NCBI RefSeq assembly: GCF_000242915.1
Contig: NZ_AFRZ01000001.1
Location: 806,001 to 870,000 of the forward strand
Origin: Sulfurimonas gotlandica GD1
GTDB taxonomy: Bacteria > Campylobacterota > Campylobacteria > Campylobacterales > Sulfurimonadaceae
Direction: 5' to 3'
Length of the DNA stretch: 64,000 nucleotides
Shown: positions 52,757 through 59,670 of the stretch, in pieces
How positions within the stretch are numbered: the stretch's first letter is position 1
How the letters are laid out: the number at the start of each line of letters is the position of its first letter
Translations under genes and position numbers: made by a program
The notes under the pieces: model-generated
Told to the model about the DNA's origin: nothing
What the model saw: the letters and a program-made list of their open reading frames with translations, nothing else
Databases searched by the model: none

Positions 52757-52834
52757 TAATGCATAATAAATATGAAATATTACATGAGCCCATTTTTTGT
52801 GTGCTATCTTTTTTGTTATATCAAGGAGTCTGTC

Positions 52835-55800
52835 ATGAAAACTTTTAAGAAAGCTTTTTATCTCCCGCTACTGTTTTTAATAATTCCATTTTCACTATTC
52901 TCTTGGGAAAGTATATATGGAGGTCGTGGAAATTTTTCTACTGACTCTGATTTTCATCTGCTTTATGGAGGGATAGGATATAGTGTATTTGGGGATTTAG
53001 AAGCAACCGGAAATAGTATATTAAGTAGTAACAATCCTACTAATGCTAATCTAATTACAGACATTACTACATATAAAACTATTGATGCAAATTTCAATAG
53101 CGCTACTTACTCTCTTGGTGATGCTGAAAAAATGAACTCATCTAGTGCTACCCTCACTCTTCCATCATATGTAAAAGGCTCTGATATTGTATGGGCAGGT
53201 TTATTTTGGCAAGGCCATGTACTGCGTGAAGGCGGTGCTTATACTGATGCTACTATTGATGCGGATATAGTAGGATGGAATAATGCAACAATCAAAGATG
53301 CTGCAGGTACTATGCACAAAATTACTGCACCAGTTGGGACTAATGACTTAAATCATAAAACATTTTACTATACAGTTACAGATGGAACTGGATATAGACA
53401 TCACTATGGTGCTTACCATGAAGTTACAGACATAGTAAAAAACTCATATACATCAGCACAGAACACTTTTACTGTTGGTAATATTAAAACTACTGCTGGT
53501 AGAGATGATGGTGAGTATGTATATATAGCTCAAGCTCCTACATACTCTGGAAATTATCAATTTGGTTTATATGGTGGATGGAGTTTGCTAATTGTTTACA
53601 ATGTAGATGGAACAACAGCTTTTGCTAATAATGTAGCGATGAAAACAGTTTCAATCTTTGATGGTTTCGATTTATACTTGACATGGGGACCTGATGGAAC
53701 AGCATTTGAAACAACTATTGATGTTTCAGGATTTATTACTCCTAAAACAGGTACTGTAAATAGTAAGTTACTTTTATTTGGAGGTGCCGGAGATAGGCAC
53801 TTAACTCCAGATACACTTCAAATTCAAAATCAAAAAAATGTAGGTACATATTCAAATCTTACTAATACTCCAAATCCAGTAGGAGGACAATTTAATCATA
53901 CTTATACAAAATTTGGTAATCATATGACTCCAGGAGACACAAATAAGCAAGGTATGGATTTAGATATATTTGATGTATCTTCTCAAATGGACAATGAACA
54001 AACAAATACAAAACTTAAATTCGGTGTTGTTAAGAATGGTGGATGTGACCAGATATTTCCACAAGTAATAGCTTTTTCAACAGAACTATACGAACCACAA
54101 TTTTGCTATGATTACGCATATAGTCAGCAAGGTATTTACTTTACAGAAAATAATGATGGTACGAAAGACCCTGATCTCATTGGAGATGTAATAACTGATT
54201 CACCAGTAGAAGTTAAAATTTTTATTAGAAACCTTGTATCAGATTTTGCCATAACTGATATGACAGTAAATATTACGGACATTAACACTACTCAAGCATC
54301 TTACGAAACTGACTCAACTAAATTGGCAAAAATTGGCAATTTAATTCCTACAAGCCTTAATGATGCAGCAGACTTAAATGTTACAACAACTGGGAATATG
54401 ACTTCCATAAAAAGTATCAATATTGGAAATATGACTTCTTATGATCATTTTTATGTTTATTATTCTCTTGATCCAAAGCAAAATTTAGATATGCCTATAA
54501 ATGTAGATGCAACTTATAACTTGGTTGTCAATGCCTCAACTATTATTCCTTACACTCTTAAACTTGGTGCAAATGTACCTATGTGTTCTGACGCCAACTA
54601 TGCATACTCTCCAGCAAAAGGTAGATTTAATGTTGTTCATAATAGCTATTACGATTTAGACGTAGGTGGAACAAAAGATGACTATAATCTACCTACTCAA
54701 GTTACATCAAGAACTGGTAATTTTAAGGTCATTTCAGTTGATGAAAATGCTACAGATACTCTAAAAAATGTTTCAACAATTGCGGCGGTTGAGATGATTG
54801 ACTCGTCTGCATTTCATGATGTAAATGCTTCATGTCAAGAACTAGCTAGTTCTATAAGTGAAAAAGTATGGGTACTTTTTGATGGTAATGTTACATCAAC
54901 ACAATTTAATGATGCTGCAATACAAAGTGCCATATCAAATAATATGACAAGCCTGACTACAAGCTCAGAATTTTACAAAAATGCACGACAAAATGCTGCA
55001 TTTAGAGTTAGTTTTAACTTAACAAATGATGGTAATGATGATTTAGTAAAGGTAGAGCCAGGAAGTAAAGCAAATACTTATAAAATAAACTTCACAGAGT
55101 TGGTGCAAAATTTAGGTACTTGTGCTAAAGATATGGATGGTATACCAAACAATACCGATACTGTTGCGCAATGGTGCTCTAACAACAGTGACAAACTAAC
55201 AAAGGAAGATATTGCAATTTGTATGGAGTGTGTGTATGGATTTAATACAAAGCTAGTTTGTTCTCGCGACAACTTTTCTATTAGACCTGAAGCTATTATG
55301 GTTCATATAGATGATCAAGACCAAACAACTCCAACATCACAGAGTAGACTAACTACGGGAGAATCAGGTGTAGTTGGAGCTGTTAGTTCAATACAAAACT
55401 TAGCGGCTGACTATGAATACAATCTTGAATTGAATGCTACAAATCATATAAACAACACTTCATCTTATGGCTATACAAGATCTTTTAATATAGCAACACT
55501 AAATGATGAAGCTCTGTACGCATGGGAACCAAGAGGTTTGAGTCCAGCTCAACTAATTACGAGAAATTTAGCTTGTAATGATGATACTAACAAATCATTA
55601 GATATTAGATTTGTTAATGGTAAAGTAGATGCGAATACTTCTATTCAGGAAGTTGGAGAATATAGCTTAAGCTTGTTAGATAGAACGTGGACAGCAGTTG
55701 ATAGCGATCCTATATATATGGGGCATCACACTGGTAGCCATTTTTCGTCTAATTTAGATTGTACACTTAATTCTTCAAGAACATATCCAATAAACACAGC

Positions 55801-57058
55801 TATAGATTTTACAAGCACAACAACATTAGCAAATACACTAACTGGTTGTGAAATAAGTTCTAACCACACAAACCCAACAACAAATGTAAAATATAATGAT
55901 TATAATGTAACATTTCATCCATATGAGTTTACACTTCTTACAACTACAACTATAGGTATGGGCAATATCACTCCACCATTATTAAAACCATTTGTCTATA
56001 TGGCAGATATATCACAAGATGAAAATGTATCAGTGCACTTAAATACCTCCATTACCGCAAGAGGTAAAACTACTGCTACAGGACTTAGTAACTTTGTTAC
56101 CGGATGCTATGCAAAACCACTGGACATTAACATCACCAAGTCAGCTATGATCAATACTCAACTTGAGTATAAATACAGAGTTCATGACTTAAACTCTACC
56201 AACGATATCATAACAGCAAATGACATCAATGGTTCCATACCAAAAGGCAGTACAACGCTTTCTCCAAATTTCACAACTACAAGTGGATATTTTCAGAAAA
56301 ATATGAATGGTACTATAAATACTACTGCGAACCTTAACTTTAGCAGAGATGCAAATGCAACTGCAAACCCTGAGAGCATTACGTTTATAACCTATGCAGC
56401 GGGAGATCCTAACAACTCATTTAAGGCTGATTTAAATCCAAGTAAAACAGCAGATGGCAATTCTACAATAAACCAAACAATCACTCACTATTATGGACGT
56501 ACAAATACACCTAAGAAGAGTGTTGTTTGTAAATCTGTACCTTGTCAAACCAATACTGATCCGAATCCAGCTAACAATCCAGATTTCACAAGAGTTTTTA
56601 TGTATTTTGAAGTATTTTGTAACGGCACATTAAATGGAAATACATGTATTCCGGCACTGCTTCCTAATGCCACTTTTAATACAAATGATATAAGATGGTG
56701 GACGAATAATAGTCATGACCAAAGTGTAACAAATGGAACAGATGGAATAATGGGAATAATAAGCGAAGTTAACGGAAATACTAATGTAACAGATATAAAT
56801 CAAACTGCATTATTAAAATACCAATACGAAACTATACTTAGATATAACTCTGCGGCTTCTCCAGCATTCCCATATACTGGAAATATGCAAAATGCTGCTT
56901 CAAGATGGTTAATCTATGATGAAAGTAACATTAATGCAACTACAAATAAATTTAGAGTTGATTTTATGAGACAAGCAGGTTGGAGTGGTAAACATGAAAC
57001 AGATGCTACTACTCAAACAAGAGGTGCTGTAAAAGTAAATAAAAGAAGTATGTGGTAA
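52835..57058 (+). CDS. large secreted MshQ-like surface protein
   Basis: A 1407-residue protein with a signal peptide (about 1-23, ending near SLFSW). The start at 52835 is favoured by AAGGAG 6 bases upstream. The N-terminal third (about 25-420) is a beta-rich domain with motifs such as GGWSLLIVYNVDG, SIFDGFDLYLT and DVSGFIT, resembling adhesin or lectin-like bacterial surface domains. The rest is Asn/Thr/Ser/Asp-rich beta repeat with several Cys pairs. The C-terminal region (about 1040-1400) resembles the MshQ-type large protein of MSHA pilus clusters. I count 16 D/E-X-N-X-S/T sequons. Three prepilin-like genes follow at once. Likely role: pilus-associated adhesin; untested. Confidence 0.8.
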   Translation: MKTFKKAFYLPLLFLIIPFSLFSWESIYGGRGNFSTDSDFHLLYGGIGYSVFGDLEATGNSILSSNNPTNANLITDITTYKTIDANFNSATYSLGDAEKMNSSSATLTLPSYVKGSDIVWAGLFWQGHVLREGGAYTDATIDADIVGWNNATIKDAAGTMHKITAPVGTNDLNHKTFYYTVTDGTGYRHHYGAYHEVTDIVKNSYTSAQNTFTVGNIKTTAGRDDGEYVYIAQAPTYSGNYQFGLYGGWSLLIVYNVDGTTAFANNVAMKTVSIFDGFDLYLTWGPDGTAFETTIDVSGFITPKTGTVNSKLLLFGGAGDRHLTPDTLQIQNQKNVGTYSNLTNTPNPVGGQFNHTYTKFGNHMTPGDTNKQGMDLDIFDVSSQMDNEQTNTKLKFGVVKNGGCDQIFPQVIAFSTELYEPQFCYDYAYSQQGIYFTENNDGTKDPDLIGDVITDSPVEVKIFIRNLVSDFAITDMTVNITDINTTQASYETDSTKLAKIGNLIPTSLNDAADLNVTTTGNMTSIKSINIGNMTSYDHFYVYYSLDPKQNLDMPINVDATYNLVVNASTIIPYTLKLGANVPMCSDANYAYSPAKGRFNVVHNSYYDLDVGGTKDDYNLPTQVTSRTGNFKVISVDENATDTLKNVSTIAAVEMIDSSAFHDVNASCQELASSISEKVWVLFDGNVTSTQFNDAAIQSAISNNMTSLTTSSEFYKNARQNAAFRVSFNLTNDGNDDLVKVEPGSKANTYKINFTELVQNLGTCAKDMDGIPNNTDTVAQWCSNNSDKLTKEDIAICMECVYGFNTKLVCSRDNFSIRPEAIMVHIDDQDQTTPTSQSRLTTGESGVVGAVSSIQNLAADYEYNLELNATNHINNTSSYGYTRSFNIATLNDEALYAWEPRGLSPAQLITRNLACNDDTNKSLDIRFVNGKVDANTSIQEVGEYSLSLLDRTWTAVDSDPIYMGHHTGSHFSSNLDCTLNSSRTYPINTAIDFTSTTTLANTLTGCEISSNHTNPTTNVKYNDYNVTFHPYEFTLLTTTTIGMGNITPPLLKPFVYMADISQDENVSVHLNTSITARGKTTATGLSNFVTGCYAKPLDINITKSAMINTQLEYKYRVHDLNSTNDIITANDINGSIPKGSTTLSPNFTTTSGYFQKNMNGTINTTANLNFSRDANATANPESITFITYAAGDPNNSFKADLNPSKTADGNSTINQTITHYYGRTNTPKKSVVCKSVPCQTNTDPNPANNPDFTRVFMYFEVFCNGTLNGNTCIPALLPNATFNTNDIRWWTNNSHDQSVTNGTDGIMGIISEVNGNTNVTDINQTALLKYQYETILRYNSAASPAFPYTGNMQNAASRWLIYDESNINATTNKFRVDFMRQAGWSGKHETDATTQTRGAVKVNKRSMW

Positions 57059-57702
57059 TGAAAAAGTTAACAAATAGACTCGCTTTTACAATGATAGAAC
57101 TTATCTTTGCTATTGTAATAATTGCACTATCAGTTATGTCGTTACCTATGATGAGTGAAGTAACTTCAAGTGGAATTGAAAATAATCTTGTTCAAGAAGC
57201 AATATTCGCAGCAGCAACAGAGGCTAATGAAGCAACATCTCACATGTGGGATGAACACTCAATGAATGATGTCAACTTAACAGAATATTCTAGAGTTGTA
57301 AATGTAAATAACGAATGTAACGCAACTACTTTTAAAAGACTAGGACACATCAACAGAAGATGTATAAATAACTTAGCACTTGGAACATTTACAGGAACAG
57401 TCTTTAACTTTTCTATCAACTTTGCTGATCACAATGCATCTTTAATATTTATAGCACCAACTGGAAGCTCTATTACATCGGCAGAAGGCTATAAACAGAA
57501 CTATAATAGCACTGCTGTTGTTAGCAATCCATCTTCATTTGGATTAGCAGCTGATAATCCAAACAGTAACATAAAAGAGATACAAGTTACTATAACAAAT
57601 GTAACTACAAACGAAATAATAACTGTTCTTAGTGCATATACTGCTAATATAGGTGAACCAGATCTTGGTAGTGGTAATATATATCATAAAGGAACTTACT
57701 AA
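57058..57702 (+). CDS. type IV minor prepilin-like protein (MshD-like)
   Basis: A 214-residue protein with a prepilin start: MKKLTNRLAFTMIELIFAIVIIALSV has a short basic leader, a cleavage point before FTMIEL, the Glu5 needed for assembly and a hydrophobic helix. The rest is a globular head with a Cys pair and sequons DVNLT, ECNAT and DHNAS. The start used is the ATG overlapping the previous stop (TAATG). It may initiate or cap a pseudopilus, as MshD/PilV do. Confidence 0.85.
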   Translation: MKKLTNRLAFTMIELIFAIVIIALSVMSLPMMSEVTSSGIENNLVQEAIFAAATEANEATSHMWDEHSMNDVNLTEYSRVVNVNNECNATTFKRLGHINRRCINNLALGTFTGTVFNFSINFADHNASLIFIAPTGSSITSAEGYKQNYNSTAVVSNPSSFGLAADNPNSNIKEIQVTITNVTTNEIITVLSAYTANIGEPDLGSGNIYHKGTY

Positions 57703-58628
57703 TGAAAAATCGTAAAGCCTTTACTATGATAGAACTAATATTTGTTATTGTTATAATGGGAATCCTAGGTAAGTTTGGTGTTGAATTTCTAGCTCAGGCA
57801 TATAATAGTTTTATATTTTCAAATATAAATAACACTCTTCAATCACAAAGTGCTACAGCTGTTGAGTTTATTTCTACAAGACTACAACATCGAATCAAAG
57901 ACTCTGCTATTGTAAGAAATACAAATATCAATCAAAATAGTACTGCTGATGATATATGGAATTTGTTAACACAAAGTGAAGATGAAAATGCAACTGTATT
58001 GGAATGGATTAGTTCAGATATAGATAGTTTTCGTGGTCTCTCTGATGGTGGAGTTGGTGTGTTAAACCTTCCAAACTGGAGTGGAATTATAGATATAGAT
58101 GCTGGTAATGCCAATTTTATTGTTTCTCCAGGAACAGATACAACAAAAGTAAATTCATTAATAAATATACTCTCAAATACAAACAGTAGCATCAATGACG
58201 CTGCAATTTATTTTATTGGTTCATCAACTCAAGGTAACGGTTGGGGATATGATGGAGCAGTTATAACAGACCAGAATGCTTCTATACATCCTATTAACCT
58301 TGTTATTGGTCAGCCAACTCAATTTGTGTCCAGTACGACTGCTCCTGTTAATTTTTCCGGGGTAGATGTTTATGAGTATTATAAACTATCATGGACTGCA
58401 AATGCTATTGCACATGATTTTGCAACAGGGGAATTGAGATTTTACTATGACTATCAGCCTTGGAAAGGTGAAAATTATCTTGATGACGGTAAATTTGCTG
58501 TGATAATGGAAAATGTTAGTTCTTTTCGTTTTAGATCAGTATCTTCTTTAATAAAGTTACAAGTATGTGTAAAAAGTAATCAAACAAATGAGGAGTATTC
58601 AATATGCAAAGAAAAAACAATCTTTTAA
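57702..58628 (+). CDS. type IV minor prepilin-like protein (MshO-like)
   Basis: A 308-residue prepilin-like protein. KAFTMIELIFVIVIMGILGKFG contains the cleavage site, Glu5 and the helix. The next stretch (SATAVEFISTRLQHRIKDSAIVR) matches the MshO pattern of an Arg-rich helix after the pilin stalk. The head holds sequons DENAT and DQNAS. Starts at TAATG, sharing a base with the previous stop; ends 25 bases into the next gene. Confidence 0.85.
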   Translation: MKNRKAFTMIELIFVIVIMGILGKFGVEFLAQAYNSFIFSNINNTLQSQSATAVEFISTRLQHRIKDSAIVRNTNINQNSTADDIWNLLTQSEDENATVLEWISSDIDSFRGLSDGGVGVLNLPNWSGIIDIDAGNANFIVSPGTDTTKVNSLINILSNTNSSINDAAIYFIGSSTQGNGWGYDGAVITDQNASIHPINLVIGQPTQFVSSTTAPVNFSGVDVYEYYKLSWTANAIAHDFATGELRFYYDYQPWKGENYLDDGKFAVIMENVSSFRFRSVSSLIKLQVCVKSNQTNEEYSICKEKTIF

Positions 58629-59080
58629 GAACTTCTCATATTGGAAAGAGAAATGGGATTGCCATGATTATGGCAATTACAGTGCTTGTTATAATTGCTA
58701 CAATAATGGCACTATCTTTGTCATTAACGACGCAAACATCAAAACGAACTACTGATTTATATCTCTATGAACAATCTGTACTTCTTTCACACAGTGCAGC
58801 AGAGTATGCTCTACTTAAAATGTCGCAAACTGCACAATGCACACTTTCTAACTTAAATTTTAATCATGGTGCTGGGAATCTATATAATATTAATGTAGAT
58901 ATGCGCTATATATCTGTAATAGGGACTACATGTCAAATTAATGCTAATGCATTGGGTCTAGAATACACTAATGTTGTTACTAATGAAACTAGTGGAACAG
59001 TTCTAATGGATATAACCGTTACAACAACTGCCGGAAACGAACCAATCCGCTATTTTAGAAGAAGCATCCAGAAATTATAA
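58604..59080 (+). CDS. type IV minor prepilin-like protein (MshP/PilX/GspK-like)
   Basis: A 158-residue protein. After a basic leader (KRNG) the mature N-terminus reads IAMIMAITVLVIIATIMALSLS, a pilin-type helix without Glu5. Loss of Glu5 is typical of the tip pseudopilin GspK and of PilX/MshP-type proteins. The head has two Cys and begins LYEQSVLLSHSAAEYALLKM. The start has GAGGAG 9 bases upstream inside the previous gene. It ends this operon; hpf follows with its own promoter. Confidence 0.82.
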   Translation: MQRKNNLLRTSHIGKRNGIAMIMAITVLVIIATIMALSLSLTTQTSKRTTDLYLYEQSVLLSHSAAEYALLKMSQTAQCTLSNLNFNHGAGNLYNINVDMRYISVIGTTCQINANALGLEYTNVVTNETSGTVLMDITVTTTAGNEPIRYFRRSIQKL

Positions 59081-59136: not shown

Positions 59137-59670
59137 ATGAATATTTCTCTTACGGGAAGACAGTTAGAACTTACTGAGCCTATCAAAGCTCATATGAATA
59201 CATCTATCGAAACACTTAGCAAATATAACATGGATATTATTTCTGTAAATGTTGTTGCTTCTGCGCAAACAAAAAAAGGTAAAGAGCACTCAGTAGTTGA
59301 GTTTGTTATCAACCTTGCTCACAAAAACTCAGTAATCATCAAACAAAACGATGATGATTTATATGCTGCTATTGACTTAGCTATTGCTAGAGCTCAAAAA
59401 GCTTTACGTCGAATGCATGACAAAGAAGTTGGTCATCGTGTAGTTGGTCTTAACGAGATTAAATCAGAAACTGTAAATCTTAAAGAAGAAGCGGAAGCTA
59501 ACGAAGATGAAATCGTACCAGTAGAACTTGATCTTTACAAACCTCGTGAAGTTGAAGATGTTCTAAACGACTTAAAAGAAACTGGCAAACTGTTTGAAAT
59601 CTTTTTAGATAACGAAGATAAAACTCGTGTTCTTTACAAAAGAAACGACGGTAAATTCGGACTTTATTAG
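59137..59670 (+). CDS. hpf: ribosome hibernation-promoting factor, long form
   Basis: A 177-residue long HPF. The N-terminal domain (1-100) has MNISLTGRQLELTEPIKAHM and the RMHDKEVGHR-type helix that binds the 30S decoding site. The C-terminal domain (about 120-177, VPVELDLYKPREVEDVLNDLK) dimerises ribosomes to 100S. The AAAAGG ribosome-binding site falls in an inverted repeat around the promoter. Its stop codon is nested with the convergent recG stop. Confidence 0.97.
   Translation: MNISLTGRQLELTEPIKAHMNTSIETLSKYNMDIISVNVVASAQTKKGKEHSVVEFVINLAHKNSVIIKQNDDDLYAAIDLAIARAQKALRRMHDKEVGHRVVGLNEIKSETVNLKEEAEANEDEIVPVELDLYKPREVEDVLNDLKETGKLFEIFLDNEDKTRVLYKRNDGKFGLY

Follow-up and report, generated by a model that had tools for sequence, protein, structure and literature searches.

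A sequon-rich pilus adhesin-like protein of Sulfurimonas gotlandica GD1 as a candidate client of PglB-type N-glycosylation

Introduction

The window analysed here, 64,000 nucleotides from Sulfurimonas gotlandica GD1 (contig NZ_AFRZ01000001.1, positions 806,001 to 870,000, forward strand), carries an operon that encodes a large exported protein of 1407 residues followed by two prepilin-like proteins. The original prediction, made from the letters of this stretch, held that these proteins are strongly enriched in the D/E-X-N-X-S/T sequons read by the oligosaccharyltransferase (OST) PglB, and took this to suggest a heavily glycosylated surface structure. The interval given for the enrichment, 52835-58628, is correct, and the operon itself runs on to 59080. 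The locus raises the question of what such an accumulation of sequons stands for. We favour, with a probability of roughly three in four, the reading that the large protein is an adhesin-like subunit of an MSHA-type pilus, with a conserved stalk glycosylated by PglB and a variable head that is largely free of sequons. Beyond the original prediction, we found a phylum-wide pattern, a largely C-terminal confinement of the sites, and exceptions on both sides.

Results

Sequon excess in the proteins of the operon

A sequon was defined as D/E-X-N-X-S/T without Pro at either X. The large protein contains exactly the 16 sequons that had been claimed, and the claimed excess over chance passed the shuffle test, with a shuffle mean of 2.66±1.59 and 16 attained in 0 of 5000 shuffles. 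When residues were shuffled only within blocks of 50 or 100, the means were 2.66 and 2.57 and the maxima 10 and 12, respectively. A 17th site with an acidic residue at -2 was excluded owing to Pro at -1. Two estimates had been too low: there are 50 N-X-S/T sites (27.7 in shuffles) rather than roughly 40, and Asp and Glu account for 139 of the 1407 residues (9.9%) rather than 7-8%. The acid at -2 is present at 17 of the 50 N-X-S/T sites and at 10 of the 87 other Asn residues (Fisher p = 0.0018), and N-X-S/T sites lacking the acid are mildly increased (33 against 25.0). Of two control motifs, the reversed one was counted 5 times and the one centred on Gln 0 times.

Concerning the downstream products, the predicted numbers agreed with our counts: 3 sequons in the MshD-like protein (0.38 in shuffles, p = 0.006) and 2 in the MshO-like protein (0.47, p = 0.07). 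The MshP-like protein has none. Taken alone the case for the MshD-like and MshO-like proteins is weak, and it is strengthened only by the family-wide count of pseudopilins described below.

Sequon counts elsewhere in the genome

The genome is closed and 2.95 Mb in size. We sampled 40 stretches of 20 kb (L002-L021 and L264-L283), which together with the window amount to 864 kb and 750 open reading frames (ORFs) of at least 100 residues; about 70% of the genome lies outside this sample, which is not fully random in that L002, L003 and L004 were picked on account of PglB or of their closeness to the window. ORFs were assigned to cytoplasmic, membrane and exported classes with a simple hydropathy rule. 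Sequons numbered 97 against 124.5 expected in cytoplasmic ORFs (n=452, 0.78x), 63 against 53.1 in membrane ORFs (n=183), and 15 against 26.1 in exported ORFs other than those of the operon (n=111, 0.58x), none of which has more than 2. The large protein is the sole marked outlier of the 750 ORFs (p = 1.7e-8), the runner-up having p = 0.003, a chance level for 750, and the comparison supports the predicted enrichment.

The deficit in exported proteins is a possible hint of sequon avoidance, but a weak one, because cytoplasmic ORFs also fall below expectation.

PglB and its gene cluster

The pglB gene presupposed by the original prediction is present. A single match to PF02516 above the cut-off was found in the genome, a 695-residue PglB, which also matches NF050801 (E 2.8e-187, 624 bits, cut-off 1300). 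Its nearest solved structures are 3rce and 5ogl, which we take to be those of C. lari PglB. The protein keeps the WWDYG motif and, at the position of R331 in the solved enzyme, an Arg. Among relatives, PglB was aligned from 63 loci, and 5 without a WWDYG-bearing ORF were left out. In all 58 remaining proteins the Arg in the R331 column and an adjacent Glu are present, and the Asp columns, presumably catalytic, are conserved in 56-57, with gaps in the remainder. A PglK-like transporter (E 1.2e-201, 671 bits, cut-off 1000) is encoded about 8 kb from pglB in the same cluster, which also includes PseB, PseC and Gmd above cut-off and Fcl slightly under it. R331 has been proposed to bind the acid at -2, DQNAT is given as the optimal site of C. 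jejuni PglB, and Pro is barred at both X positions, as stated in PMC4894442.

A family-wide signature that matches PglB specificity

Homologues of the large protein were then counted, with ORFs shorter than 400 residues excluded. In 109 non-redundant members (at most 60% identity), 1910 sequons were found against 273.4 expected, and 107 of the 109 were enriched at p<0.01; a low fragment, the N-terminal half of L164 (1 against 1.19), had been excluded as redundant. The highest number in a relative is 37.

Specificity was examined in an earlier set of 90 members, likewise with at most 60% identity, in which the motif occurs 1606 times against 239 (6.7x). With respect to the central residue, Asn gave 6.7x and every alternative at most 1.28x. 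At +2, Ser gave 6.3x and Thr 7.2x, with alternatives at most 0.90x, and at -2, Asp gave 7.8x and Glu 4.5x, with all others at 0.64-1.21x. N-X-S/T without the acid was near chance. Across every combination of two offsets between -5 and +5, the maximum, 6.69, fell at (-2,+2), and the second highest value was 2.00. Pro occurs at -1 and at +1 in 0.4% of cases each (3.9% overall), and the favourite at +1 is Ala (14.4% against 6.2%). Judged from these sequences, the excess appears to be the published specificity of PglB, written into the family by selection.

The positions of the sites were compared in an alignment of 70 members of at least 1100 residues with the terminal Trp. Sequons fall in 299 columns, 152 of them private to one member and 19 common to at least 20 members. 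The proportion of sites shared by a pair of members is 22% at 25-30% identity and 48% at 50-70% identity. The number of sequons is maintained, although many of their positions shift.

In four loci (L115, L131, L143 and L187), 2 or 3 homologues of the large protein lie within one locus. The gene family is also present on a contig filed as a metagenome-assembled genome of a Thermoproteota archaeon (L182), probably through mis-binning.

Enrichment in the downstream pseudopilins

The same signature is found in the genes that follow. A prepilin-like gene was present downstream at 60 of 97 non-redundant loci; at only 39 of 106 loci did the downstream DNA extend to at least 2000 nt. The first such gene holds 139 sequons against 16.9 (8.2x) over 60 loci, 38 of which are significant singly (p<0.05), and the second 46 against 8.6 (5.3x) over 29 loci, 12 of them singly significant. 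When both were pooled, the central Asn gave 7.0x, Asp and Glu at -2 gave 10.4x and 2.4x, and Ser and Thr at +2 gave 6.4x and 7.6x, with other residues tested at this position reaching up to 1.6x.

Largely C-terminal confinement of the sites

In the large protein of the window, no sequon lies before residue 420, 5 lie in residues 420-780 and 11 beyond 780. The conserved CYDY motif, a landmark picked after this distribution had been noticed, was used as the border between head and stalk; 78 of the 109 members have the landmark and sufficient length. The N-terminal part of these 78 contains 112 sequons against 67.1 (1.7x) and the C-terminal part 1262 against 136.6 (9.2x), and the ratio is higher in the stalk than in the head in every one of the 78. 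The N-terminal part ranges from 293 to 1036 residues in 86 members. Among 21 relatives searched for domains, choice_anch_L was found in 4 (best E 6.5e-54) and PPC, weakly, in 2 (best E 0.003). Since it varies in length and domains, the N-terminal part looks like an exchangeable head, and we infer that it serves in binding.

AlphaFold models of both halves are rich in strands, with a mean predicted local distance difference test (pLDDT) score of 86.8 for the C-terminal and 80.9 for the N-terminal half. Residues 420-578 resemble immunoglobulin (Ig)-like domains, including those of Gram-positive pilins (Z 8-9.5), which reflects a common arrangement and not membership. The C-terminal half shows a weak resemblance to the FdeC adhesin (VIA, Z 8.5, 292 residues, root-mean-square deviation 6.8), which does not suffice for assigning it to a family. 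Foldseek with this half named no family, the best 50 rows being antibody chains with a query TM of at most 0.12.

Co-occurrence with PglB and points against the proposed reading

Genomes and loci are referred to below by G and L numbers, families and genera by f and g numbers. In the family of the window genome (f1), a homologue was found in 50 of 61 genomes, 46 of the 50 having a PF02516 match. Across the phylum, 80 of 200 genomes rated at least 95% complete contain a homologue, and 79 of these 80 a PF02516 match; 54 of the 200 have no such match, and one of them, G150, has a homologue. In family f4, 78 genomes have a homologue and 42 have none; PF02516 is present in 65 and 29 of these, respectively. 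The link between PglB and the homologue is strong in good genomes and weak in fragmented ones.

In a set of 49 genomes, 41 have PF02516 (40 above cut-off), and of the 8 without, only that of L166 (AUK043) has a low count. L166 contains 3 sequons against 2.20 and is the sole non-enriched member of the 90. Three profiles found no PglB in its genome, only a stray match at E 0.06. Its nearest relatives (46-45% identity) have 13, 19 and 27 sequons, and at those places the change in L166 can affect any of the three letters. This looks like erosion of sequons after loss of the enzyme, as read from one draft genome of unstated completeness. PglK was not found in the genome either, which carries little weight because PglB-bearing G306, G298 and G314 also gave no hit at the level of PglK.

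Several observations weigh against glycosylation by PglB as the explanation. A homologue occurs without a PF02516 match in 13 of the 78 f4 genomes and 4 of the 50 f1 genomes, and several of the f4 genomes concerned are rated 91-100% complete (G150, G313, G328, G354, G383, G390 and G404). The homologues that were read from such genomes are enriched (sites/expected: G150 10/2.70, G326 30/2.72, G353 14/2.86, G313 16/0.87, G328 19/1.93, G354 7/0.96, G376 23/3.55), and G371 has two (16/3.77 and 21/2.28). A more sensitive PglB profile gave no match in G150, G326, G313, G328, G353 and G376, and no PglB was found in any of the four fragmented genomes of genus g62 (G301, G310, G318 and G326). Conversely, L242 of G306, a genome rated 96% complete, has 3 sequons against 3.17 although the PglB of that genome is full-length and has both the Arg and WWDYG, whereas four PglB-bearing relatives in its genus are enriched (L240, L241, L246 and L248). 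The co-occurrence is confounded by ancestry, and the pglB cluster of S. gotlandica lies about 300 kb away from the operon. Moreover, DgPglB has the Arg and is nevertheless relaxed, so that the Arg alone leaves the -2 rule unfixed, according to PMC4894442. According to PMC6025236, PglB is limited by how accessible a site is once the protein has folded, and 7 of the 16 sequon Asn residues lie in predicted strands, 8 in coil and 1 in a helix.

Missing PglB hits in enriched genomes are likely due to assembly gaps; in G290, a piece of PglB cut at a contig end was recovered with the more sensitive profile. For g62, where homologue L244 of G326 accounts for the 30 sequons listed above, a binning gap or a different OST may be considered.

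Taken together, genomes with and without PglB do not make a clean natural experiment that could serve as proof: L166 fits, but L242 and the enriched members without PglB do not. Loss of the Arg reading the -2 position was also rejected as an explanation for low members, as this residue is present in 58 of 58 proteins and in G306. The view of the sequons as features of loops only is not supported, with 7 in strands and 1 in a helix.

Gene content of the operon and pilus assembly genes

The features are listed in Table 1. The gene order is the 1407-residue exported protein, two prepilin-like genes, a small exported protein, and then an HPF-like gene (HPF by eye). The labels MshD, MshO and MshP derive from gene order and the pilin motif. 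An alternative in-frame ATG upstream, at 52772, would extend the large protein to 1428 residues. A simple hydropathy rule points to export of this protein, with a hydrophobic stretch at the N terminus ahead of a long soluble chain, and its closest named matches in the genome collection are mostly from Sulfurimonas. Profile searches against Pfam and NCBIfam gave no family above cut-off for it. The MshO-like protein matches PF07963 N_methyl with 25.1 bits, above the cut-off of 21.2; the MshD-like protein scores 16.6 bits (E 0.006), under the cut-off, with the motif recognizable by eye. For the MshP-like protein no Pfam or NCBIfam family was above cut-off, and its name derives from position only.

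Table 1. Features of the operon, with window coordinates; for sequons, the last column gives the members of the 70-member alignment that have a sequon at that position
Feature	Position	Strand	Basis or conservation
Large exported multi-domain beta-sandwich protein, 1407 aa, 16 sequons	52835..57058	+	ORF; sequon count; models
Signal segment and variable head (N-terminal part, residues 1-420), without sequons	52835..54094	+	
Residues 421-1407, the conserved C-terminal part with all 16 sequons; 420-578 modelled as Ig/pilin-like domain	54095..57055	+	
Sequon DINTT, N484	54278..54292	+	48/70, window protein included
Sequon DLNVT, N515	54371..54385	+	3/70
Sequon DENAT, N638	54740..54754	+	9/70
Sequon DVNAS, N664	54818..54832	+	26/70
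Sequon DGNVT, N685	54881..54895	+	27/70
Sequon ELNAT, N867	55427..55441	+	49/70
Sequon DTNKS, N919	55583..55597	+	12/70
Sequon DANTS, N934	55628..55642	+	22/70
Sequon DYNVT, N1024	55898..55912	+	23/70
Sequon DENVS, N1064	56018..56032	+	41/70
Sequon DINIT, N1099	56123..56137	+	9/70
Sequon DLNST, N1120	56186..56200	+	42/70
Sequon DINGS, N1132	56222..56236	+	39/70
Sequon DANAT, N1174	56348..56362	+	11/70
Sequon DGNST, N1209	56453..56467	+	16/70
Sequon DINQT, N1322	56792..56806	+	1/70, window protein only
MshD-like pseudopilin, 216 aa, 3 sequons (DVNLT, ECNAT, DHNAS)	57052..57702	+	Order, pilin motif
MshO-like pseudopilin, 308 aa, 2 sequons (DENAT, DQNAS)	57702..58628	+	Order, pilin motif
MshP-like small exported protein, 158 aa, 0 sequons; final gene before HPF-like gene	58604..59080	+	Position

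An MSHA-like assembly cluster is present elsewhere in the genome and consists of T2SSE with MshEN, T2SSF, an AAA protein, a secretin and PilO, with 0-1 sequons in each gene. As for membership in an MshQ-like group, the large gene adjoins the pseudopilin genes, and the profile search (Pfam, NCBIfam) found no domain of that family in the protein; a literature search for MshQ gave nothing pertinent among the matches listed.

Two genes resembling ribosome hibernation factors (by eye) lie about 16 kb apart, at 59137-59670 of the window and at L004:11952-12281. The copy in the window directly follows the operon, and a similar gene likewise follows the operon in L166.

Discussion

In the mechanism that we propose, the large protein would be an adhesin-like subunit of a type IV pilus of the MSHA type. 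Its export and assembly would take place together with the products of the downstream pseudopilin genes. While these proteins cross the inner membrane, PglB would place an undecaprenol-linked glycan on the Asn of D/E-X-N-X-S/T. In the stalk, the conserved beta-sandwich part at the C-terminal end, selection may have increased the number of sequons, while the variable head would have been spared most of them. The outcome would be a stalk that is coated with sugar and presumably withstands proteases, tipped by a bare binding part that can be exchanged. PglB-type glycosylation of a surface structure, as first predicted, is supported by the shuffles, by the enzyme and by the genome comparison; that the structure is heavily glycosylated would follow from the selection seen on its sites. 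Occupancy of the sites, a position at the pilus tip and a role for the coat are our inferences.

Other explanations of the counts were weighed. The possibility that a protein rich in Asn, Thr and Asp yields sequons by chance is practically nil. The protein does contain 10% Asn and 12% Thr, and acid-free N-X-S/T is somewhat raised (33 against 25.0), but shuffles that preserve this composition yield 2.7 sequons, non-acidic residues at -2 stay at 0.64-1.21x in the 90 members, and the reversed and Gln-centred motifs have 5 and 0 occurrences in the large protein; the explanation is refuted by the counts. We also consider it improbable that D-X-N-X-S/T forms a turn in the beta-sandwich fold that serves structure or metal binding and carries no sugar. 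A turn of this kind would suit a protein made mostly of beta strands, it would account for the motif in genomes without a PglB hit, and with 19 columns bearing the motif in at least 20 of 70 members some positions are old. It is difficult to reconcile with a motif that is spread over 299 columns, with 152 private to a single member, and is equally strong in pseudopilins, with the admission of both Glu and Asp at -2 and both Ser and Thr at +2 and the barring of Pro at both X, all matching published PglB, and with homologues such as L166 and L242 that show no excess.

Less remote, although still unlikely in our estimation, is a role in the periplasm: the sites would be selected through PglB, but the glycans would aid folding, stability or export, and the C-terminal restriction would reflect the needs of folding. 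PglB works at the inner membrane, which counts in favour of such a role. So does the prediction that most of the PglB targets of C. hepaticus (23) are inner-membrane proteins, as given in PMC9816155. On the other hand, the density of up to 37 sites together with the turnover of positions favours a bulk property such as a coat, and the remaining exported proteins in our sample are not enriched. We retain the glycosylated stalk with a largely sequon-free head as the preferred reading.

Why bacteria retain N-glycosylation is, in our view, poorly understood; the PglB targets described in the literature consulted are many and lightly modified. A bolder proposal, which we offer tentatively and would sooner doubt than accept, is that, among the clients of N-glycosylation in free-living Campylobacterota, this pilus adhesin is the main one under selection. 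On this view, its densely glycosylated stalk is the reason why the pathway persists and why the -2 rule remains legible in genomes, whereas the remaining exported proteins gain no sites. If true, the adhesin family would report, from genomes alone and in any lineage, on the specificity of the OST and on its loss. In one operon the selection signal is strong enough for the substrate rule (Asp over Glu, Ser/Thr, no Pro, Ala preferred at +1) to be read off genome sequences. The finding also names a protein to isolate, and predicts modified peptides from the stalk rather than from the head. A literature search limited to the best-ranked titles, mostly outside subscription journals, found no published description of such a protein.

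Compared with the PglB system of the Campylobacter type, the present one shares the sequon pattern of an acid at -2 and no Pro, the enzyme family with its key Arg, and a PglK-like flippase. It differs in that the targets reported there have few sites, whereas 16 are found here in one protein and up to 37 in its relatives. The Vibrio MSHA locus comprises MshD, MshO, MshP and MshQ, with the large gene last. Shared with it are pseudopilin-like genes beside one large exported protein, and assembly genes in a cluster of their own, with an MshEN-type ATPase, T2SSF, an AAA protein, a secretin and PilO. Here, however, the large gene comes first, not last, and its product has no Pfam or NCBIfam family above cut-off. 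We know of no report of N-glycosylation of MSHA, and to our knowledge archaeal AglB follows no -2 acid rule. Archaeal S-layer proteins carry many N-glycans transferred by AglB, as described in PMC4287180. That transfer by AglB, and the lack of any tie to a bacterial pilus adhesin, set the archaeal system apart; common to both is a surface protein bearing numerous N-glycans, which in the S. gotlandica protein are predicted from the sites.

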